64,000 bases of DNA, from the NCBI RefSeq assembly GCF_001485575.1, contig NZ_BCNB01000001.1, positions 186,001-250,000 of the forward strand, written 5' to 3'. Positions within the stretch are counted from its first letter, which is position 1. Each line of letters starts with the position of its first letter. The notes beneath the pieces are model-generated. The model did no database searches. It worked only from the letters and a program-made list of their open reading frames with translations, and was not told the origin of the DNA. Source of the stretch: Haloarcula sp. CBA1127 (GTDB lineage: Archaea; Halobacteriota; Halobacteria; Halobacteriales; Haloarculaceae). A program made the translations under genes and the position numbers. This document shows positions 52,310-64,000 of the stretch, piece by piece.

Positions 52310-52741
52310 TCAGTTGGGACGGAGACCGTCGAGATACTCGTCTACCGGTGCGTTGGTGTAGTCAAGATAGGCTGCTATCGAGATAGTTGAAACAACAATG
52401 AGCAACGTTGTGCCCATGGCGTAGACATTCATACGCGACTCTGGGACGTCTGAATTGAAAAATTGCATTGTAATTATGAGTGTAATCCACCCGATGCTAG
52501 CCACGATTAGCCAGTAGCCAGTCAGCTTCTCCGCAAACCGCTCAGGGAGATCATACAGTATGACTGGGACACCGATGAAAAACATCGGGCCAAGAAATCC
52601 CCACATCGCGACGGAGTCCCAACTCAGTACCCCGAGGTACCCGAAAAAGTACGATACAGGGTAGGTAATCGGGAACAGCGATGCTCCGAAGAGCATCGCA
52701 AGAATTGCTTTCCCGACCGGGAATTCGACTTCGTTGCTCAT
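52310..52741 (-). CDS. Small four-helix membrane protein inside BREX operon
   Basis: This 143-residue protein has four predicted membrane helices: about 12-34 (ILAMLFGASLFPITYPVSYF), 44-62 (AMWGFLGPMFFIGVPVILY), 74-92 (YWLIVASIGWITLIITM) and 107-127 (AMGTTLLIVVSTISIAAYL). The last 15 residues are polar. It is tightly packed: 9 bases after the pglX2 stop, with GGAAG in that gap serving as a ribosome site, and 2 bases before pglZ. Membrane proteins are not part of the BREX core, so it may be an accessory effector or a passenger. I do not recognise a family. Confidence 0.72.
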   Translation of the reverse strand: MSNEVEFPVGKAILAMLFGASLFPITYPVSYFFGYLGVLSWDSVAMWGFLGPMFFIGVPVILYDLPERFAEKLTGYWLIVASIGWITLIITMQFFNSDVPESRMNVYAMGTTLLIVVSTISIAAYLDYTNAPVDEYLDGLRPN

Positions 52742-52750
52742 CGTTCTTCC

Positions 52751-55700
52751 TTACAGTACTTTGTCCTCGACAATTTCGGGGACGATACGCTGCTCAGCGA
52801 GCGGCGTAATGTTGATCGTGACGCCGTGCTTGTGATTGGGTTGGTAGCCAGCGGTCGTGACTTCGGAAAGGGCACGATCCTCCCAATCTGAAGGAATCTG
52901 CTTGTAGACCGACTGGCAACGATCGTCGATCTCTTCGGCGAGCGCCTTGAACTCCGCTAACGGTGGCAGTTCGTCCACTTCGTCGACATCTTCATCGTCC
53001 GCAATCTGTTGGAGGTACTCTTCGTCGAGGACGGATGCGTCGTCGATGCCCGTTGCGAGAGAGGCGAGCAGTTTCTCGTCCTCGGTGAGGGTGTCGAATG
53101 GCTCGCCGTCCTCATCGAGAAGGTCGCTCCCTTCACGCTCGAAGTAGTAGGTCATGAAGAGGATGCCCGTACTGGAGTAATGATCTGAGCCTTTGAGCCG
53201 CCAGTTGAAGTAGTCGAAGAGGTCCGCGAGATGGGCTTCGACAGGTTCGTCGCTGGGCTTGGCGTACTCCTCGCAGGCGTGTTCCAGTTCCCCAAGAGCG
53301 TCCACCCACTCATCACGCCACTCGTCGACCTTGTCCCAGAAGCCATCGGAGAAGGTGTCTTGGAACCACTCTTCGCCGTTCATCTCTCGGAGTTGTTCGA
53401 GGGTTTCGATGCGCTCCGCAGTCTCCTCGCGGAAGGCGGCGACTTTGGGGGCCAGCTTGTTGAGGCGTTCTCGGTCATCGTCGTCGAATTCGCGCTCGCT
53501 GGTGGAACCGAGTTCCTGCATCACTTCTTCGAGTTCGGCGATCTGTTCGAGTGCGCTCGAACAGAACTCGAATTCATCAGTTGCCTCAGCACGTTCGCTC
53601 GTAGAGAGCGACTCGTCGTTCCGACGCTGATTCGCCGCCGCTTGGCGGTCGCGGAGGGAAGATTTCCGTGGTTCGAGATAGGTGTTGCTGAGGCGGTCGA
53701 ATAGGCTGGCATCGAGTTGGTGGTAGTCGACGAAGCACGCGAAGCCTTCACCTTTCGCGTCGGCCAGCAGCCGCGCCGTACTGAGCTTCCAGATGATGGG
53801 CGTGTTCTCCATCGTGTCGACGTGGTAGGCGAAGAGGTCGTCCTCAATGAACGACCGGAGGTTGGGGTACGCCTCGTCGGCGGCGGACTTGGCCCCGAGA
53901 ATATCGTCGACCTCGACGAGGCGGTCTTCGGCGTGCTCGCCGTACGCGTCCTCGAATCGCTCGACAATGCGGTCGAGAATGTCGTCCTGTTCATCTGTGC
54001 CTTCAAGTGGGATGATACCGTCCGATTCCTCCCGGACAGCTTCCATTGCGAAGTGGTGGACGAGATCTTTTACCTGTTCGCCGAGATTTTCGGGGACTTC
54101 GGGAACGGACTCGGGGTCGGGGACTTCGCGATGAGCACTCTCTGGGGTTCGTAATGAAATCTCAGTATCAATCTCGTTGCGAGTTTTTTTGGATATATCT
54201 AGCTCATCGAATATCAAAGAGTCGATCTTTTGTGATATATTCTCTATTCGATTTTCACATCGGATCTTTTGCTTCTCGTGGCTCTGAGCTACAGTCGGAA
54301 TAGACTCACTTGCCTCACCCACAGATCTGCTTATGTTCATCTCTTCAGCCATGGCGTCTGTGAACGGGTGTTGATAGAAATAATCAGAATCGTCATCTCC
54401 GGGTAAAAGCGGCGGACAAATATAATATGGGCTAGTGGGCTCGTGAATTCGCAAATTCATCATTATCTCATACTGCTTTTTTGCTAATTCGTCAATTTGG
54501 TCTATTTGTTCTAAAGACTCTAGCCAAGGACTTCCACCAACCACATTGATATTCCATTGCCTTTCAGTTGTTCTAGATAAGAACAGTGCATGGTATAATT
54601 TTGAATTAAGTATCGACATCAATTCAAAATTCGATATGTCAACTTCTGGGAAAAGCATGAAGCTTGCAGTACTGAAGAGGCTACCAGGAGAATATCCAAA
54701 CCGTCTCCCAGTTCTCTTGATGTGGTTCCAATTTAGACCTGATTCCCCATAGAATTCTTGATTTGGTGTTCTTACAGAATCACTAGAACGCTTCAACTCT
54801 GTGCCACGGTCACCCCAAATTACGGTTTCGATAATTTTTGGAGAAATCCATGCATCTGATCCACCGTAGGAGAAAGGCTCAAAAACCGAATAGTCGGTTA
54901 CTGTCCACTGAGGGCGTGTAAATCTAGAATAATTTGCAGTCACTGCACCTGTAACGGCTTTACAGGCTGATCTTCCATCAATATCTGCCCCTTCTGCATC
55001 AATCTTTATTTCTGAGTTGTGAAGATCTCGAACCACAGATGGAACTGAGTAACAGATTGGTGTCCTTGGGATTTTACCGAACTCTGTCAACGGAACTTCA
55101 TAATATCGCTTCACAGCCTCCTCAATCCCACAAATAGTTTGTGTAAATGCCTTCTCCTTCTTTGATTTCTCAAGGTCATGGAATCTAAGAAATGTGCCTT
55201 CTACTCCTTGCTCTGACTCAGAACGAACTACGGTACCAACTGTCGGAACTGTTGCATTATCTAAAATTCCATATCCAAATTCAGAAAGGAATTCAAAATT
55301 ACCTCGCTCACCTATGAAGTCCTCTCGGAAAGTGGTAAACCGTCGTTTATTCATAAAAGAACCGGGTATAAGCATTCCAACAAGACCGTTATGTTTCGTG
55401 ATTTTATCACACACCTCAAAGAAATTCACATAGTATTCCGATGGGTATCGATAATTTGACTCAACGTAATTTTGAACCACCTCTGGCATTCTATTTCTCG
55501 TCCCATATGGAGGATTCATTAATGCTACGTCGTATTCTTGAGCCAAAAGATCTATTAGGCGGATGAAACTCCGTAAATCCTGAGCCAGGAACGAATCCTC
55601 ATCTCGGTGCTGGTCTACCGCTTCACGGAGACTGTGGAGAATCTGCCCAAGTGTATGATCCTCACGAGGATCGTCTTCTAGCGTGATCTGGACGCTTTCC

Positions 55701-57121
55701 TCATCAACTTCGTCCTCAAATAGGTCACCGAGCGTCCCGCGCACGTCCAGTAGACTCCCGAGTCCGTGAACTTCCTCGAATGCGTTAAGTATTCGCCGCA
55801 ATGCATCTTCCACGTCGGACTGACCGTTAGCTACCTCGTCGAAAACTTCTTCAACGCCTTCAACATGAGCGATTTTTGCGTCGGCACAAACGATACCGAG
55901 TTCGGGCATGTCGAACCCTCTCGAGCCCTCGGCCTCAGCACGTGTACGACCCTTCAGGTAGAGATTGAACGCGGCGAGCTGACAGGCCCGCATGTCCAGA
56001 TCGACCCCGTACAGGTTGTTCCGCAGAATCTCATGAGGGATTTCGGCAGGGGCGAGTTCGGTTTCTGCTCGCCAGATTCGCTCCAGCACGTCGAACGCAT
56101 ACAATAGGAAGTGCCCACTCCCGCAAGCTGGGTCGATGACGCGGATGTCCTCCGGGCCGTCGAATGCCGGTGGTTCGCCTTCTTCCTCGGAAGGAACGAG
56201 ATAGGTGCAGAAGTCCGCGATGTCCGGCGACTGGTCTGGTGAAAGTGGGCGGTTCTTGCGTTCGTCAGGAGAAAGTGAATCTTGTCGCTCGACTGCATCC
56301 TGTAGCTCACCCTGGTCTTCGAGATAGAGCTTCCCCAGCGAATTGTCGGTGAGCATCCGAACGACCCAATGGGGTGTGTAGAACTGGTTCGCCGGAGGCA
56401 CATCTTCAGCGGCTAACCCATGGTTTTTTCCTTTTTCTCTGAGATCATCCAATAGCTTGACGTTGTAGTACTCGTAAACCCATCCCAGCACGTCGTCGGC
56501 CCGCCAGACTTCATCTGGCACCTTATCAAGCAGACTGCAGAGGTCTTCGTAGGTGTCGTCGTCAGGGTCGATCAGGCTGTAGGCGGTCGAGCGGTCGAAG
56601 AGAATCTCTATTTCATCAGCGAGGTCGTCGCACGCGTTCCGATAGGCTTCGAGGACGGCTTCCTCTTCGAGCATGAACTCCTCGGTGACTAGCCGGTCGG
56701 CGGCCGGCGTGAGGCCGTCATCGCGGAAGGCCGTGACCTCGTCGTCGATGAAGTCCCGGACTTCCATGCAACGGAGCGCCGCCAGACGGTTGACAATGGT
56801 GTAGCCGACGCCAGTGATATACTGCTCGTGAGCGTCCTCCCAATCGTGACCATCGGCGGCTTCGAGTTCGATTGCCTCGACCAGGTTTTCCTGCGCCTCG
56901 CTCAGGGACGCGTTGTCGTCCTCGCGAGCGTCAGCAAGGGAGGGCTCGTCGGAGCTTGCTCCGACGGTGTCGGGTTTTTCGTTGAGGCCGTACTCGTCTT
57001 CGAGCTGATACCGAACGTTCGCCTCGACGCGGTCGCGCATCTCGGTAACGACGTCTTCGAGATGCTCGCGTTCTTCCTTGTCGAGTTGCGCCTTGCGGGG
57101 GTGGGTAGATTGTCCGTCCAT
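52751..57121 (-). CDS. pglX: BREX adenine-specific DNA methyltransferase PglX (copy 2)
   Basis: This 1456-residue paralogue of PglX1 has DPACGSGHFLLYAFD at about 330-344 and the catalytic NPPYGTRNR at 536-544. Residues up to about 480 and from about 1030 on closely match PglX1, with long identical runs such as VRDFIDDEVTAFRDDGLTPA. An extra insert lies near residues 45-70. The middle (residues about 490-1000, DNA about 54130-55650) is much more AT-rich than the flanks and diverges in sequence. It covers the expected target recognition domain. This points to replacement of the specificity region from a lower-GC donor while the ends are kept alike by gene conversion. The two copies would therefore methylate different sites. 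Confidence 0.93.
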   Translation of the reverse strand: MDGQSTHPRKAQLDKEEREHLEDVVTEMRDRVEANVRYQLEDEYGLNEKPDTVGASSDEPSLADAREDDNASLSEAQENLVEAIELEAADGHDWEDAHEQYITGVGYTIVNRLAALRCMEVRDFIDDEVTAFRDDGLTPAADRLVTEEFMLEEEAVLEAYRNACDDLADEIEILFDRSTAYSLIDPDDDTYEDLCSLLDKVPDEVWRADDVLGWVYEYYNVKLLDDLREKGKNHGLAAEDVPPANQFYTPHWVVRMLTDNSLGKLYLEDQGELQDAVERQDSLSPDERKNRPLSPDQSPDIADFCTYLVPSEEEGEPPAFDGPEDIRVIDPACGSGHFLLYAFDVLERIWRAETELAPAEIPHEILRNNLYGVDLDMRACQLAAFNLYLKGRTRAEAEGSRGFDMPELGIVCADAKIAHVEGVEEVFDEVANGQSDVEDALRRILNAFEEVHGLGSLLDVRGTLGDLFEDEVDEESVQITLEDDPREDHTLGQILHSLREAVDQHRDEDSFLAQDLRSFIRLIDLLAQEYDVALMNPPYGTRNRMPEVVQNYVESNYRYPSEYYVNFFEVCDKITKHNGLVGMLIPGSFMNKRRFTTFREDFIGERGNFEFLSEFGYGILDNATVPTVGTVVRSESEQGVEGTFLRFHDLEKSKKEKAFTQTICGIEEAVKRYYEVPLTEFGKIPRTPICYSVPSVVRDLHNSEIKIDAEGADIDGRSACKAVTGAVTANYSRFTRPQWTVTDYSVFEPFSYGGSDAWISPKIIETVIWGDRGTELKRSSDSVRTPNQEFYGESGLNWNHIKRTGRRFGYSPGSLFSTASFMLFPEVDISNFELMSILNSKLYHALFLSRTTERQWNINVVGGSPWLESLEQIDQIDELAKKQYEIMMNLRIHEPTSPYYICPPLLPGDDDSDYFYQHPFTDAMAEEMNISRSVGEASESIPTVAQSHEKQKIRCENRIENISQKIDSLIFDELDISKKTRNEIDTEISLRTPESAHREVPDPESVPEVPENLGEQVKDLVHHFAMEAVREESDGIIPLEGTDEQDDILDRIVERFEDAYGEHAEDRLVEVDDILGAKSAADEAYPNLRSFIEDDLFAYHVDTMENTPIIWKLSTARLLADAKGEGFACFVDYHQLDASLFDRLSNTYLEPRKSSLRDRQAAANQRRNDESLSTSERAEATDEFEFCSSALEQIAELEEVMQELGSTSEREFDDDDRERLNKLAPKVAAFREETAERIETLEQLREMNGEEWFQDTFSDGFWDKVDEWRDEWVDALGELEHACEEYAKPSDEPVEAHLADLFDYFNWRLKGSDHYSSTGILFMTYYFEREGSDLLDEDGEPFDTLTEDEKLLASLATGIDDASVLDEEYLQQIADDEDVDEVDELPPLAEFKALAEEIDDRCQSVYKQIPSDWEDRALSEVTTAGYQPNHKHGVTINITPLAEQRIVPEIVEDKVL
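54130..55650. other. AT-rich foreign-looking segment within pglX2
   Basis: Base composition shifts abruptly from GC-rich haloarchaeal codon use to AT-rich, with many A/T third positions and AAA, TTT and ATA runs, and returns to GC-rich outside. The reading frame stays intact. The boundaries are approximate, judged by eye. The segment encodes the divergent central region of PglX2. Confidence 0.7.
56550..56779. repeat. Near-identical direct repeat, copy in pglX2
   Basis: This is the counterpart of 49526-49755 at an offset of about 7024 bases, in the same orientation. Recombination between the copies would delete pglZ and leave one hybrid pglX; gene conversion would exchange sequence without loss. 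Confidence 0.8.
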
Positions 57122-57257
57122 ACGAGAATCCGTGATGTTTCAAGCAGAGCCATTGCGATGTCTTGAAGATTGTCCATATCGGCTACCCCGCTTGCGGAGA
57201 GAACATCTCCCACAATACTAGGTATGCGAAACAGGTCCATGTTGAGGTGTGAGACTC

Positions 57258-58979
57258 TTAGGCCAGATCCTCGGCACGTTCATTCAGATCAACGAGCCTA
57301 CGCACTAGCTCTCGAACCGGAAACAGCTCTCCGTGGTTAGCATCTATCGCCCAGAACTCGACCTCGTTCTGGAACATATTTCCGAACTTCTCGTTGGTCT
57401 TCCTGTTGATCGTCTTTAGATTTCGGAGACAGGTCAGATTCGGAATGATGATATTGATCCTTTTGACGTTCACTCCCTCGTACTTCTCTATTGTCCGATT
57501 TATCGTCCGATGGTCAGAACCAAAGAGTGTCTCGATTTCATAGACTTCCTTTGTCTTTGAATTGTACACGTCTGGTCGGATCTCAGAGTGAGCCCAAGGC
57601 TCAGTTTCTGTCTGGACTCGCTCACGCATATCGTCCCAAGGGTGATCTCCCGCTGGATCCAGATTCTCCTGTCTGAGGAGGAAATCGACGACGAAGCACT
57701 TCAACAAATAATGGAGGTGTGATTCTTCCCCCTGATTGTGACTGGTGATCTCCTCAATTACACCCTGATCTGGCTCAATTGCCTGCTTGAATTTCTCTTC
57801 ACCGGCGTGGAATAGCGTATCGAGATCACGCTGATCAGTTTCCAGATAGACATCGCCCCACGCTAGCCGGACGAGTTCCCGCTTAACATCGTCAGGAAGG
57901 TCGCGTACCCGGAGCGGTCGAATATTGACCGATTCGCGAACGTCTTTTGTTGAACGCAAGTGCTCATACAGAGCACCAGCAAATTGTTCATCGACAAAGA
58001 GCAGGAGATAGCCGAGTGTCTGTGTGAAGAACTCGTCGATACGGGAGTGGAGACGCTCCAGGTCGGCATCTCCTTTCTCTTCGATCAATTCTCGTGTGAT
58101 ACCCCCTTCTTCTTCAAGTCTACTGACGAACCCGAAGTAGTCACTATCCGAGTCGTCTAGTGATGAAATTCGATTCTGAACCCGAGTGTCCTCCACTGAT
58201 TCCGCCTCTCCGGGAGTGAACAGATCCGCGAGTGGACGCCCCCCTACGATTTGCCGAAACTGTTCTCGGCAGAGTGTTTCCAGTGTTTGTCTATATCGCT
58301 CGCTCTTTCTCGTCCCTGCCACGATGCAGACCGGTGCACCCATGCCGATAGAGCCCGCCGGCATTTTGAAAAGAAGGTCATAGAGATCTGGTGGAGTTTG
58401 CAAGCCAGCATCTCCAGCGCCCTCATCAGAACCTTCTACAGACGTGTCGGCTTCCTTCCTACTATCCGTTTGTTTCTCTTCAGTCTCCGATACACTCTCG
58501 GCCGGTGTATCTACTTCAGTCGACGTTATATCGCGATCATCTTCGAGAGGCTCGACTTGCATGAGGTTTCGAGGAGGGAGGCCGACCTCGACGCTTTCGA
58601 GGGAGCTGTGAAGCGGTGTGACTGGTTGGATCCGTGCTGACTCCCAGATTCGCAGACGGGGTACGGCAGGGTCAATCTCAGGGTGAGTTTCGTCCGAAAA
58701 GCTCCCGCCGGTCTCAATCGTAATGGGGGGGATATTTAGAGTCTCACGGAGTCCCGGCTTGTGCCGAACTACCGGGAGAGGTTCTGAGGTGATGACGTGT
58801 GGCTGAATTTCGAAGGGGAAGCGTTGCGGTTTCTGCGCATTATCGATCGCTTCTGCAGTGGTCTTCTTGACCCCGACCGAATAGCTTGGCTCAGGAATTG
58901 GGTCTGTTACCCCTTCGCGCTGAATTCCATCCTTTCTCTTCTCGGTACGTTTCGTTCGTTTCGCCGATCTCTTAGTCAT
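57258..58979 (-). CDS. Unrecognised protein with nuclease-like C-terminus
   Basis: I do not recognise this 573-residue protein. The first 200 residues are basic, then low-complexity and acidic (a SETEEKQTDSRKEADTSVEG linker around 165-185). The middle begins with MPAGSIGMGAPVCIVAGTRK and looks like a globular alpha/beta domain without a P-loop. The C-terminal part has SEIRPDVYNSKTKEVYEIET at about 465-484. The spacing of Glu466, Asp470, Glu481 and Glu483 recalls a PD-(D/E)XK nuclease core, but with E-I-E in place of E-x-K. The gene overlaps the 226-residue gene upstream by 8 bases and lies about 135 bases before pglX2. It may be a BREX accessory nuclease or a divergent core protein. Confidence 0.65.
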   Translation of the reverse strand: MTKRSAKRTKRTEKRKDGIQREGVTDPIPEPSYSVGVKKTTAEAIDNAQKPQRFPFEIQPHVITSEPLPVVRHKPGLRETLNIPPITIETGGSFSDETHPEIDPAVPRLRIWESARIQPVTPLHSSLESVEVGLPPRNLMQVEPLEDDRDITSTEVDTPAESVSETEEKQTDSRKEADTSVEGSDEGAGDAGLQTPPDLYDLLFKMPAGSIGMGAPVCIVAGTRKSERYRQTLETLCREQFRQIVGGRPLADLFTPGEAESVEDTRVQNRISSLDDSDSDYFGFVSRLEEEGGITRELIEEKGDADLERLHSRIDEFFTQTLGYLLLFVDEQFAGALYEHLRSTKDVRESVNIRPLRVRDLPDDVKRELVRLAWGDVYLETDQRDLDTLFHAGEEKFKQAIEPDQGVIEEITSHNQGEESHLHYLLKCFVVDFLLRQENLDPAGDHPWDDMRERVQTETEPWAHSEIRPDVYNSKTKEVYEIETLFGSDHRTINRTIEKYEGVNVKRINIIIPNLTCLRNLKTINRKTNEKFGNMFQNEVEFWAIDANHGELFPVRELVRRLVDLNERAEDLA

Positions 58980-59652
58980 CGCTGGGAAGGTTCGAGTCTA
59001 CCACACCCGGATAATCCATTATAACACTCTCAAACCGAAACTCGCCGTTGCTATCCCGCAAAACATCCAGCTCGGATACCAAGAACCGCTTGATATCCCG
59101 TATTCGGCCCTCCTCAATATCGGTGAGTTCCTCAATACGCTCCGTGTTGAGTCGGTAGCCGTTCTGTTGGTCGCCGTACTTCCGCATTACGTTGAAGATT
59201 GAACGGATTTCTTCACCATAATTTGGCTCGCTAACGGCCATCTTCAACTTGTGATCGATCCATTCACGCCGGGGATTCGGAATCTCTTCATCAAGGTATT
59301 CACCTAGAAGCCGCCGCCTTTCCTCATCATCGAAGAACTCCATAACGTCGTTAATCAAGGAGGACAGGTCGCTACTCGGGCCTCGGTGGTCCGTTGAAAC
59401 CTCCTCTTCACTAATCTCCAGCCCAAAACCTTCCGTGAGGAACTCTTGCGTTTCCATTCGCTCAAAGAGTTCAGGGTACGCGTACCGCATCTGTCGGCGT
59501 TCTTCGGGCAACAAATGAACCATTTGACTCACATAGTTCCGCGTGGGTGAGATTGCTACCATCGCCTCAAACAGGTGTGAAAGGTGCTCTTTGAACTCCT
59601 CTTCAGAAACCGGAGTTTGCTCGGGTTCTTCTCGGGATTCGGTCTCACTCAT
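58972..59652 (-). CDS. Unrecognised acidic protein with possible winged helix
   Basis: This acidic 226-residue protein has no membrane segment or cysteine motif. The sequence is mostly helical (EEFKEHLSHLFEAMVAISPT, LLPEERRQMRYAYPELFERM, DDEERRRLLGEYLDEEIPNP). The C-terminal part (LNTERIEELTDIEEGRIRDI, then KRFLVSELDVLRDSNGEFRF) could be a winged helix. It overlaps the 573-residue gene by 8 bases, so the two products probably act together. A CTATATGC box at 59674-59681 on the minus strand lies about 25 bases before ATG, suggesting its own promoter. BrxA- or BrxB-like identity cannot be excluded, but I see no clear match. Confidence 0.65.
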   Translation of the reverse strand: MSETESREEPEQTPVSEEEFKEHLSHLFEAMVAISPTRNYVSQMVHLLPEERRQMRYAYPELFERMETQEFLTEGFGLEISEEEVSTDHRGPSSDLSSLINDVMEFFDDEERRRLLGEYLDEEIPNPRREWIDHKLKMAVSEPNYGEEIRSIFNVMRKYGDQQNGYRLNTERIEELTDIEEGRIRDIKRFLVSELDVLRDSNGEFRFESVIMDYPGVVDSNLPSDD

Positions 59653-59737
59653 ATGCTATATTATCTTCCACTCGCATATAGAACCCCAGAACAAATAAGC
59701 ACATGTAAGGCCGTCTAACGTCCCATCGATCCGACGC

Positions 59738-60550
59738 TCACAGGGTCGTCGACTGCTTCACGATCTCACCCTCGTCGACGATTACGACCTCTTTCTCTTC
59801 CAGACTTCGTACCGCTTCATCGATCTCCTCGTCCGGGTGGTCGAGCCGGCTCCGGAGTTCGGACAGCGCAATCGACTCGTTGAAGGCCTGCAACACTTCC
59901 AGTTCCCGGTACACGCGTTCGGTGATTTCGGAGACCCGCTCGGCCAACGGCGTCGAGATGTTGTGTTGCTCTTCGAGTTGCAGTAATGCCTCGTTCGCGT
60001 GGGTGACGAACAGCTCCTGTCCCAGCAAGTCGCTCTGCTGCTCCAACTCGTCCTCGATAACGTCGAAATCGAGGTCGGTCTGTACGAGCGAAACCATGTC
60101 CTCTATGTCGTCCGTTCGCCCGGCGACCGACTTGAACAGGAAGATGTCCTCGGCACTGACCAGCGCAACCGACAGTCTCCCGGCGTCGAGATAGGTTTCG
60201 CTCCGCCGGCGCATCCCCTCCGAGAGAACGAGCTTGTCGATCACCTGTTGGTTGAAAATGTCGATACGACACCTGTCGTCGTTCTCGAGAATCCGCTGCG
60301 CTCCGAGGTCGTCGTACTCCTCTCCGGGCTCTTTGACGATGTCGTATCCGTTGTCCAGCAAGACCGCCTGCAGTACTCGAAGCTCGTCGCCGTCGCTAAC
60401 GATGAGGTCGATGTCCTTGGTCGTCTCCTTGAGATCACGGAACGACATCGCACCGCCGCCGATCAGAAAGACAGTCAGTTCAGTTTCGAGTTGCCTGCCG
60501 ACCCGTCGCAGTTCAGACTCGATGTACTCGCTGTCGAACCGCCGCCTCAT
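59738..60550 (-). CDS. Nucleotidyltransferase-fold protein, probable TA partner
   Basis: This 270-residue protein has a polymerase-beta-type nucleotidyltransferase signature: FLIGGGAMSFRDLKETTKDI then DL, i.e. GGGAMS at 31-36 and Asp46-x-Asp48, with the spacing of the AbiEii/DUF6036 group. The N-terminal half also has LFKSVAGRTDDIEDM, a conserved segment of such proteins. The C-terminal 80 residues (ALSELRSRLDHPDEEIDEAV and SLEEKEVVIVDEG) look like a winged helix. The gene overlaps the HTH gene upstream by 4 bases (ATGA). AbiEii-type proteins are nucleotidyltransferase toxins controlled by an HTH antitoxin. The pair fits that plan but could also be a regulator. Confidence 0.8.
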   Translation of the reverse strand: MRRRFDSEYIESELRRVGRQLETELTVFLIGGGAMSFRDLKETTKDIDLIVSDGDELRVLQAVLLDNGYDIVKEPGEEYDDLGAQRILENDDRCRIDIFNQQVIDKLVLSEGMRRRSETYLDAGRLSVALVSAEDIFLFKSVAGRTDDIEDMVSLVQTDLDFDVIEDELEQQSDLLGQELFVTHANEALLQLEEQHNISTPLAERVSEITERVYRELEVLQAFNESIALSELRSRLDHPDEEIDEAVRSLEEKEVVIVDEGEIVKQSTTL

Positions 60551-61467
60551 ACTGCCACCCCGTATTCGTCGGCGAGCTCACGGAACTCCTCCCACCGCGG
60601 AAGGCGTCCCGACCGACTTTCCCCCTCAGTATCGAGGTATTCGAGGAGGTTCGACACCTGTTCGTCGACCTCGTGCTTTTGCGCGGCTTGGAGTACCTCG
60701 TCGCGGTCGATTGCCGTCTCGCTGAGCAAGAGGAGGCAGTAGGACTGCGAGCGCGTTCCGTCATCGATTACGAGCATATGACAACACAGCTCCGCCGGCG
60801 ATACCTGTTCAACTGTCTCCGAGTACAGGTAGTACCGACGCTGACGAGCCATCAACGGGAGGTCGTACGCTTGGAACAATTCCGGCCCCGTCAGGTGGAA
60901 CGCATCTTCCTCGATATCGGTGCGGGTCTGGACGAGAAACTCGTCCAGCGATTCCCAGAGAATTGTGAACGACTCCGTGTGGTCTTCGATGCGGTGTCTG
61001 TGCCGCAAATGCGCAAACTCACGGGCCACGGTAGATAGCCCCTCGAAGTCGTCGTTGAGCCTGTACTTTCCGTCCGACTTGTATATCATCCCGCGGTTCT
61101 CCAGCGGGGACACCGACCGATGTACCGTGCTTCGATGAACGCCGGCTTGTTCCGCGAGTTGGGTGACACTCGCCGGCGACTGCAGGCAGTACAGAATACG
61201 TAGCGTTGCGCCGCCGAGCAATTCGGGAAACGGGATGTGGGTGTACTGTTGGACGAAGCTGTCGAATAGTTCTATGGCTCGGGCGTCTGACCGATTGATC
61301 TGCTTTTGCTTTCCCTCACGGCTGGTGTGAACCAACCCCTTCGCCTCCATTCGGGTAACGAGTTCGGACACGTAACTACGACTCCGGTTTAGTTCCTCGG
61401 CGAGTCCCGAAACTGTCGACTTTCCTTGCAGGGCTTCCAGCGCCCGAAGCTCTGCCTCAGTGTACAC
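60547..61467 (-). CDS. Two-HTH regulator, probable antitoxin of the nucleotidyltransferase
   Basis: This 306-residue protein has two predicted winged HTH domains: residues 5-50 (RALEALQGKSTVSGLAEELN, RSRSYVSELVTRMEAKGLV) and about 86-140 (LRILYCLQSPASVTQLAEQA, GVHRSTVHRSVSPLENRGMI). The C-terminal half (ESFTILWESLDEFLVQTR, YYLYSETVEQVSPAELCCHM) is an unrecognised domain. It begins with GTG at 61467. A GAATATAAATAA box lies about 27 bases upstream, and an inverted repeat flanks that promoter, so autoregulation is likely. It overlaps the nucleotidyltransferase gene by 4 bases. The layout resembles AbiEi (antitoxin) and AbiEii (toxin), inserted between brxC and the rest of the BREX genes. Confidence 0.77.
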   Translation of the reverse strand: MYTEAELRALEALQGKSTVSGLAEELNRSRSYVSELVTRMEAKGLVHTSREGKQKQINRSDARAIELFDSFVQQYTHIPFPELLGGATLRILYCLQSPASVTQLAEQAGVHRSTVHRSVSPLENRGMIYKSDGKYRLNDDFEGLSTVAREFAHLRHRHRIEDHTESFTILWESLDEFLVQTRTDIEEDAFHLTGPELFQAYDLPLMARQRRYYLYSETVEQVSPAELCCHMLVIDDGTRSQSYCLLLLSETAIDRDEVLQAAQKHEVDEQVSNLLEYLDTEGESRSGRLPRWEEFRELADEYGVAV

Positions 61468-61526: not shown

Positions 61527-64000
61527 TCAATCGAGCGACTCGATCAGCACGACAGCGCCATCCGGTAGGTCATCCATCGTCTCCTGAATCCGCCGTAACT
61601 GTTCGTCCACGCCCGCAAGCACTTGTTCAGCTTCTTCGATCAATTCACCCACTCGTTCCTCACTCGGTGAGCGGGTCCCCTCTACTGCACCGACGATCTC
61701 GTCGGTGATGTCGTGGTCGGGATGCTCAGACTGCAGTTCCTCGGCGAGTTCCGCAAGCCGCTCGTCGATCTTGAATGGGTTCTCCGCCGCATTGAGGAGT
61801 TGTTCTACATCGTCGACACTCGGCGGCTGCGACCGGGTGAGCATCTCGTTCACGTCGGCCGTGACTGGGTGATTCGGATGGTCCTCCGCGAGTCGTTCCG
61901 ATGCTTTCCGAAGCTGCGACCAGAGCGAGGCCTCGCTACCGGAGGCTTCGAGGAGCCGCCGTGCCCGTTCGTACCGTCTGGCCTGCTGGACGACCGTCGG
62001 GTCGACGAGGGCTTCCTCCGAGAACGAGTCACCACGCCACGCCGTCTCGAAGAGATCGTAGAGGTCGTCGATGGTGACGCCGTCGAATTCGACGGCGACG
62101 CGGTCTGCGGTTTCCTTGCTGCTCCCGTCGTGAGCGTAGAGCCACGTGGCGAGACTGGAAACCATGCTCTCTGGCTCCTCGTCCGTCGGCGGTTCGCCCG
62201 TGATGCGTTCGTACTGCGCACGGACGACGGTACGCCTGTGCGTGTCAGCGTCTTCGAGTAGTGTTCGCAGCCGGTCGGCAGCTGGCACTTCGTCTCCGCC
62301 GACGACTGCTTGCATCTCCCCCGTAATGTCCGGACCGGGGTAGCGCCGCTTCATCTCTACTGTCCGCTGGCTGAACTGCTCCCAGAGGGACTGGCCGTCT
62401 TCGCTCGGCTGGAAGAGCCCGCTGGCCCGAGCGAACCGTTCGGACTGCTGTTCGACCGTCTCGGACGCGAAAGCATCCGTTTCGAGAGATTCGCCCTCGA
62501 GTGCGGGCTGGAGCGCTGTTTCGAGTTCGTCCAGCGAAACGCCGTCGCCGAACTCCCTGCTGACGCCTCGAATGACGCGTTTCACCAGCACGCTGTTCTC
62601 GTCAACCCACTCGGCTAACACAGAGAGCCACGCGTCGGGGTCGGTCCCGTCCGGCTCCTCGCCGATCAGCGTCTTGACGGTTTCCCGAATCCGCTCTGGA
62701 TCGATATTGCCTATCGACTCGAAGCGGATCTGTACCTCGGTCAGGTTCGTCTTGTTTCTGACCGCCCGTCCGATCTCCTCCGGTTCGGTAATGTACTCGT
62801 CGTCCCGACGGAGTGCGATCTCGTTGGCTGTTGCAAGCGTGATCAGCAGTGCCGAGATCGACTCCTGGGGCGTTCCGCGATACGCGCCGCCACGCTGAAC
62901 AGTCTGGGTAAGCACGTCCTCAGCCCGAAGGGACTGGGTGTCCGCGTACTCGTCGAGAAATTCCTGACACCAGCCGTCGGCGAGTTCGGCGCGGTCGGTA
63001 TCTACCCCAAGCGTGACAGCGTCCTCGCTCGTGAGCGGCCAGTCGGCGACACCACGGAAGAACTGTGCCATCCGCTTGGCATCGTCGACTTCCGTGATGC
63101 CGTTCGTCAGGACGAACCGCGTTCCGCTGAACACGGACTGGACTTCCGTTTGCACGACCTGATCGAACGCGTCCTCGTATCGCCCTCTCGTCCCGCCCGT
63201 CCGGACGTAGACGTCTGCTTCTTCGAGCTTTTCGCGAATCGCCGCTTCGAGTGCCCGCTGTTCGTCGCGGTGATCGGACTCCAGATCCGGATAGGTGTCC
63301 GTCTCTTCCGAGAGCACTTCCTGCATACCCATCACGTCCCGCAGGCGATCGATCGTCGATTGCTGTAAACTGACGGCGACGAGGATATGCTCACCACCGT
63401 CCCGGCCCTCGTTCGTTGCCTGCCACGCAGCAACCTGATCGCTGACCTCGGCGTCACGGTTCGCGACCAGTCGCACACGAACGGCGTCGAACGCCGGCGT
63501 CGGTGCTTGCTCGATCGGATCGAGGACGGAGTAGCCGAACCGGAGCGGGACTTTGCGCTCTCCCTCGAAATCCACCTCGTGTCGACTGCCAGCAGAGAGC
63601 AGGCGATCGCTGCCCTCGCGAATGGAATTCTCCAACTTGGCCGACAGCCGGTGCGATGGAATCTGTTGTGCGCGGGTCTTCGCCCGCGTCAGGATATCCT
63701 CCTGTTCCTCGGAGACCAGCAGGTACTCCTCGTCGCCACGGTCGTTTGTCTCCGTCAGCACCTTCCGATCCTTGAGGAGAGCAGACAGTGCCGATTCGAC
63801 GTCGTCTCGGACGGACTCGAACGACTCGTTAGTCGACGTGACCATCAGTCGGGCGAGGTTTGCCGGTGTCGATGGCACCGAGGACCGAACCTGATTCAGC
63901 AGGTACAGCGCCTTCGCTACCCGAACTGAGAACGCGTTCTCGTCGCCGCCGGCCGATGGGACGAGTTTGTTCTCGACCATCTCCTGTACCCAGAGCGGGA
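61527..64000 (-). CDS. brxC: BREX BrxC/PglY-like protein (5' end beyond window)
   Basis: This is the C-terminal part (at least 823 codons) of a large protein. The frame stays open past the Met at 63980 to the window edge, with PLWVQE encoded directly before it, so the true start and the P-loop ATPase domain lie outside. The visible part includes LVRSSVPSTPANL-like helical text, a domain with ILVAVSLQQSTIDRLRDVMG, then repeated helical stretches (DLYDLFETAWRGDSFSEEAL and similar EELETALQPALEGESLETDA). The end is an acidic coiled coil finishing VVLIESLD. Position with PglX, PglZ and a SNF2 helicase supports BrxC/PglY, the large ATPase of BREX; sequence identity needs confirmation. Confidence 0.72.
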   Translation of the reverse strand, partial: PLWVQEMVENKLVPSAGGDENAFSVRVAKALYLLNQVRSSVPSTPANLARLMVTSTNESFESVRDDVESALSALLKDRKVLTETNDRGDEEYLLVSEEQEDILTRAKTRAQQIPSHRLSAKLENSIREGSDRLLSAGSRHEVDFEGERKVPLRFGYSVLDPIEQAPTPAFDAVRVRLVANRDAEVSDQVAAWQATNEGRDGGEHILVAVSLQQSTIDRLRDVMGMQEVLSEETDTYPDLESDHRDEQRALEAAIREKLEEADVYVRTGGTRGRYEDAFDQVVQTEVQSVFSGTRFVLTNGITEVDDAKRMAQFFRGVADWPLTSEDAVTLGVDTDRAELADGWCQEFLDEYADTQSLRAEDVLTQTVQRGGAYRGTPQESISALLITLATANEIALRRDDEYITEPEEIGRAVRNKTNLTEVQIRFESIGNIDPERIRETVKTLIGEEPDGTDPDAWLSVLAEWVDENSVLVKRVIRGVSREFGDGVSLDELETALQPALEGESLETDAFASETVEQQSERFARASGLFQPSEDGQSLWEQFSQRTVEMKRRYPGPDITGEMQAVVGGDEVPAADRLRTLLEDADTHRRTVVRAQYERITGEPPTDEEPESMVSSLATWLYAHDGSSKETADRVAVEFDGVTIDDLYDLFETAWRGDSFSEEALVDPTVVQQARRYERARRLLEASGSEASLWSQLRKASERLAEDHPNHPVTADVNEMLTRSQPPSVDDVEQLLNAAENPFKIDERLAELAEELQSEHPDHDITDEIVGAVEGTRSPSEERVGELIEEAEQVLAGVDEQLRRIQETMDDLPDGAVVLIESLD

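Follow-up and report, generated by a model that had tools for sequence, protein, structure and literature searches.

Two overlapping genes, here termed A and B, lie in a type-5 BREX locus of Haloarcula on the minus strand of the window (i.e. the whole stretch of 64,000 nucleotides that was analysed), between brxC and pglX2. A and B form a conserved two-gene pair and are cargo of the BREX locus, not part of its core. Our preferred reading, held with moderate confidence, is that the pair is an accessory nuclease defence module carried by type-5 BREX, in which B would be the effector nuclease while A and the middle domain of B would provide control or recognition.

The gene pair and its relatives

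The pair has the following features, and these ORF coordinates agree with the 8-base overlap of a 226- and a 573-residue gene described in a sequence-only reading of this DNA.

58972..59652, minus strand: gene A, helical partner of 226 aa (ORF; family and domain sharing; dN/dS; no library match); residues ~15-150 are the domain in common with long A forms
57258..58979, minus strand: gene B, predicted nuclease of 573 aa (ORF, relatives, alignments)
58972..58979, minus strand: 8-bp overlap of the A stop and B start (ORF coordinates)
58386..58979, minus strand: B residues 1-198, variable N-terminus (weakly conserved; dN/dS 0.40)
57771..58385, minus strand: B residues 199-403, conserved middle domain with the pattern P..i...CR..yRe..GG.P (alignments; dN/dS 0.15)
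57258..57770, minus strand: B residues 404-573, CoiA_nuc-like PD-(D/E)XK domain (HHalign to CoiA_nuc, 74-84%)
59653..59692, minus strand: stretch upstream of A that moves together with the pair and contains a TATA-like element (H. persicum homology breakpoint; sequence)

Comparison of the window with Halorubrum persicum gave dN/dS values of 0.06 (A) and 0.20 (B), the latter falling from 0.40 in residues 1-198 to 0.15 in the middle domain and 0.09 in the C-terminal domain. These low values, and the retention of relatives across a phylum, indicate that A and B are genuine genes under purifying selection. The N-terminus of B is probably disordered and the C-terminus of A is possibly a winged helix. 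The ~40 bp upstream of A move with the pair, homology to H. persicum beginning at 59692, and contain a TATA-like CTATAT ~26 nt 5' of the A start codon, where H. persicum has CTATGT. Judged from these bases, a promoter belonging to the pair itself is plausible. A and B are probably co-transcribed, with possible translational coupling through the 8-bp overlap; in most relatives the two genes likewise overlap or are only a few bases apart.

Neither gene has a family match in Pfam, NCBIfam or PADLOC. The only signals for B, BrxA and AbiEi, were at E ~0.05, and the earlier statement that the pair belongs to no BREX family that can be named stands. The profile search suggested at that time produced B homologues of ~600 aa beyond the haloarchaeal order but within the same archaeal phylum, and the C-terminus of B was found in further haloarchaea by direct protein search. 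Relatives of B occur in 9 of the 50 genomes around G557. Full or nearly full B genes with upstream sequence were available from 21 loci besides that of the window, some of them haloarchaeal and some from beyond that order; they are not all independent, as several come from close relatives. A same-strand gene lies directly upstream of B in all 21, and in 19 this is a member of the A family. A jackhmmer search from gene A over 632 neighbourhood ORFs recovered only genes adjoining a B gene. Weak gene A matches in ~40 genomes (E 0.003-0.09) look like chance and were discarded.

Members of the A family are either short (179-257 aa, as in the window) or long (317-482 aa), at times as two paralogues in tandem, and the short and long forms have a common domain of ~120 residues (HHalign 96%, E 4e-9). 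Variants of the arrangement were also observed. In L010, L076 and L077 (genomes G003, G392 and G296) a 1071-aa protein shares one operon with two A-family paralogues and B; it has N-terminal membrane segments, no Pfam match and a weak PADLOC PD_DExK stretch (E 0.011). Remote B genes of 606-620 aa in L156 (G090) and L157 (G036) overlap by 8 bp with a partner of a different family; the two partners, of 360-373 aa, share 33% identity and are unrelated to A by HHalign. These loci also carry a third gene of 545-557 aa. For the 1403-aa B of G248 no A was found. No relatives of the pair were detected in viral contigs (three scans) or in phage records, and plasmid records gave a single match, in Halorussus pelagicus.

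Overlapping genes with a small helical product encoded first and a nuclease second, together with a patchy distribution, would also suit a toxin-antitoxin system, i.e. an addiction or abortive-infection module with B as toxic nuclease and A as antitoxin. This is an unlikely reading: A and B are both large for such pairs, A also exists as 317-482 aa forms and tandem paralogues, and in the near relative Haloarcula argentinensis (G031, L011) a frameshift splits gene A and leaves B intact, a state that should not be survivable unless B were inactive or unexpressed. One pglX copy of the same locus has an in-frame stop, and owing to these two lesions the L011 BREX locus may be decaying.

The predicted active site of B

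Conservation was counted in an alignment of 22 divergent B sequences, some <20% identical to B of the window. The conserved set is ESxxHxxxK (residues 419-427), E458, D470, E481 and E483, located as follows.

57699..57725, minus strand: ESHLHYLLK motif, B residues 419-427, including H423 and K427 (each kept in 20 of 21 sequences)
57606..57608, minus strand: E458, conserved acidic residue of a TE motif (21 of 22 sequences)
57570..57575, minus strand: P469-D470, PD motif (D470 in 22 of 22, P469 in 13 of 22)
57531..57539, minus strand: E481-I482-E483, (D/E)XE motif with Glu at the Lys position (both Glu in 22 of 22)

RPDVY and YEIET correspond to residues 468-472 and 480-484, respectively, and T484 is kept in 21 of the 22 sequences. 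The proposal in the sequence-only reading of a PD-(D/E)XK-like core with Glu replacing Lys is borne out by D470, E481 and E483, which are invariant among these relatives. Its inclusion of Glu466 among the residues to be checked for conservation is not borne out: E466 is kept in only 2 of 22 relatives and is thereby ruled out as a catalytic residue, the further acidic residue being E458. D470, E481 and E483 match the motif of the PD-(D/E)XK superfamily with an accepted Glu-for-Lys variant, an acidic residue being able to take the place of the Lys in this superfamily (Kosinski et al., PMC1189080).

Remote homology was assessed with HHalign. The C-terminal profile of B matched haloarchaeal CoiA_nuc (PF06054) at 74% (E 2.7e-5) and a slightly different CoiA set at 84% (E 8e-6), a thin comparison with three CoiA sequences per test, whilst eight unrelated control families gave ≤0.4% and Mrr_cat and HSDR_N 0.1-0.2%. 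The motifs of a haloarchaeal CoiA_nuc protein (GESPLHLRMK...VEFVT...RRADV...VEVQ...TTASY) follow the order seen in B. Neither B nor its relatives reached the Pfam cut-off for CoiA_nuc, and B is best described as a putative PD-ExE relative of this family below the level of Pfam membership. PDB profile searches gave nothing credible, and weak matches of B residues 396-461 to proteins of ~700 aa were rejected as chance matches to NFACT proteins. AlphaFold models of the B C-terminus (pLDDT 44; input alignment of three near-identical rows) and of gene A (pLDDT 46; two near-identical rows) had no significant fold match, and the predicted order of elements in the former only loosely fits the alpha-beta-beta-beta-alpha-beta core. 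Motif and remote homology support the prediction that B is a nuclease.

An E-x-E in place of E-x-K could instead signify lost catalysis, the CoiA-like domain of B having become a nucleic-acid sensor that no longer cuts; inactive REase domains are proposed as sensors for BrxHII (PMC12839542). We regard this as improbable, as invariance of D470, E481 and E483 in 22 sequences is unexpected for a dead site, acidic replacement of the Lys has been noted for the superfamily (PMC1189080) and the conserved K427 could stand in for it.

The brxC-pglX slot of type-5 BREX

Genes of the BREX-5 locus run in the order brxB, brxC, HTH, DUF6036 nucleotidyltransferase, A, B, pglX2, small protein, pglZ, pglX1 and brxHII, with brxB in the continuation beyond the window (L009). 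The gap between brxC and pglX in type-5 BREX is a cargo slot, with the following borders and content in the window.

61527..63998, minus strand: 3' part of brxC, one border of the slot (PADLOC PDLC02473, E 0)
52751..57121, minus strand: pglX2, the other border (NF033454 BREX_5_MTaseX, 2237 bits)
57180..59692, minus strand: extent of the A-B cassette, the unit common to H. persicum and missing in G005 (breakpoints 59692 and 57175-57180)

Genome G005 has the same BREX with the HTH and nucleotidyltransferase genes and without A-B, and H. persicum has A-B without the HTH and nucleotidyltransferase genes; homology of all compared loci picks up again at window position 57175-57180, just before pglX. 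The gap in other type-5 loci holds an SMODS (CBASS-type) cyclase, an HEPN protein or, just above cut-off, a NucS-like protein.

Several further observations were made on the slot and its surroundings. An overlapping HTH regulator (HVO_2833 C-terminal family) and DUF6036 nucleotidyltransferase at 59738-61467 constitute another cargo pair in the same slot, which is found in relatives with or without A-B. The SMODS cyclase gene of G287 is located at L093:11622-12698. An ORF of 347 aa recurs in the slot of L086, L089, L096, L099 and L100; the NucS_C match just above cut-off is to the L089 copy, and the remaining copies were recognised solely by their length. A stretch of ~55 bp 5' of the pglX start (window 57122-57180) is common to type-5 loci and recurs ahead of the second copy of pglX that L085 and L086 carry; it is a possible common promoter or leader. 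Between pglX2 and pglZ (52310-52741) lies a hydrophobic small protein of 143 aa with no PADLOC match; some of the other type-5 loci encode it at >90% identity, and others lack it.

Type-5 PglX was detected above cut-off in 60 of 391 genomes, and A-B adjoins BREX-5 in three. The independence of the module, which is also present without BREX, identifies A-B as cargo. A proposal that B is a BREX core protein was rejected on the grounds that it matches no BREX profile and is missing from most type-5 loci compared. It is likewise quite unlikely that A and B are dedicated BREX components working only with PglX and PglZ, for example as the nuclease arm of type-5 BREX. Such a role would agree with the position of the pair inside the type-5 operon in three genomes and of a remote A-B adjoining the type-1-like BREX of G429; however, most type-5 loci compared lack A-B, and the pair occurs with no adjoining BREX in G383, G191 and other archaea.

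Defence context, proposed function and known systems

Remote relatives of the pair were found near defence genes in other archaea. In G429 the pair lies just upstream of, and on the same strand as, a type-1-like BREX operon (brxA, brxB, brxC, pglX, pglZ and a 678-aa gene where brxL usually sits), and the G560 copy is flanked by DISARM-like genes (DrmD, DrmMI) on one side and a Druantia DruE3-like gene on the other. The B-like gene with the other partner in G036 (L157) adjoins a TmtA-like gene (2008 aa), G386 has a B fragment in the vicinity of an OLD/GajA-like gene accompanied by HerA and NurA, and the long B of G248 comes after a gene with a ZacB-like stretch. Large neighbours in six loci of other archaea (L141, L146, L147, L148, L149 and L152) had no credible PADLOC match. 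The association with defence genes is suggestive only. Given that the pair lies in or beside BREX in two distant lineages, A-B is probably a movable defence cassette.

CoiA is thought to process DNA in competence. The similarity of B to CoiA_nuc, the patchy distribution and the several loci whose tested neighbours include no known defence gene might accordingly be read as DNA handling for uptake, recombination or mobility, with A-B placed in defence islands only because these gather mobile genes. This is decidedly improbable: unrelated archaea have the pair inside or adjoining BREX and other defence genes, and no conserved transposase or recombinase partner was seen beside it.

An accessory defence module is favoured because A directly precedes B in 19 of 21 loci, D470, E481 and E483 are invariant and the C-terminus matches CoiA_nuc. 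It is favoured also by purifying selection, by the comparison of empty and filled slots and the other defence-type genes in the slot, by the G429 and G560 neighbourhoods, and by the precedents in PMC9519451 and PMC12839542. Counted against it were the AlphaFold models without a significant fold match, the six loci without credible PADLOC neighbours and the frameshifted A beside an intact B in H. argentinensis. Under this preferred reading, A and B would most likely form a complex that keeps B inactive until foreign DNA or a BREX-blocking virus is detected. A and the middle domain of B would act as the control or recognition part, sensing the trigger and licensing the nuclease. The CoiA_nuc-like PD-(D/E)XK domain would then cut nucleic acid, most likely DNA, with D470, E481 and E483 holding the metal and E458 and K427 assisting. 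We infer the complex, the cleavage, its trigger and the anti-viral effect alike. Location inside BREX would fit a back-up role, by analogy with the other auxiliary nucleases of BREX loci described in PMC12839542.

A bolder reading, which we put forward tentatively, is that of a stand-alone archaeal two-gene defence system, in which a CoiA-like PD-ExE nuclease is under the control and guidance of its own helical partner and has been recruited to type-5 and type-1-like BREX as a back-up for when a virus disables BREX. If so, the long form, in which a 1071-aa membrane protein joins B and two A paralogues, would represent a larger, membrane-linked version. PADLOC, Pfam and NCBIfam profiles miss A-B, and archaeal defence is poorly catalogued; the type-5 brxC-pglX slot is a good place to seek more unknown defence genes. 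The pair is testable in genetically tractable haloarchaea and has a clear predicted active site.

Of the known systems, CoiA is itself a predicted PD-EXQ nuclease (Kosinski et al., PMC1189080), and an E. coli protein with a CoiA domain acts against phage (PMC9519451). CoiA_nuc (PF06054) and B have the same motif order, i.e. (G)ES..H...K, E, D-V, E-x-E or E-x-Q, and T..Y. The CoiA_nuc site is E-x-Q, whereas B has E-x-E-T, with E-x-E in all 22 sequences; unlike CoiA_nuc, the nuclease domain of B is C-terminal, behind an unrelated middle domain, and has the partner A. BamHI-type active sites follow the order Glu - Asp - Glu-x-Glu, most PD-(D/E)XK enzymes having Lys at the last position. B resembles them in this order and in the Glu at the usual Lys position, but in PDB profile searches lacks sequence similarity to any solved restriction enzyme.

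Auxiliary or back-up PD-(D/E)XK nucleases are known within BREX loci from Rakesh and Krishnan 2026 (PMC12839542). They and B are alike as predicted PD-(D/E)XK nucleases inside a BREX operon and adjoining core genes. The set described there consists of standalone REases, REase fusions and Shedu-type genes, whereas the window has a two-gene pair with a CoiA-like member; neither CoiA nor any two-gene pair is mentioned in the main text of that paper, and B may appear nameless in the supplement. As a general kind, auxiliary PD-(D/E)XK nucleases of BREX loci are already known. A-B is apparently an undescribed two-gene module of one archaeal phylum that is used as BREX cargo and, with the defence role that we infer for it, probably a previously undescribed defence component.
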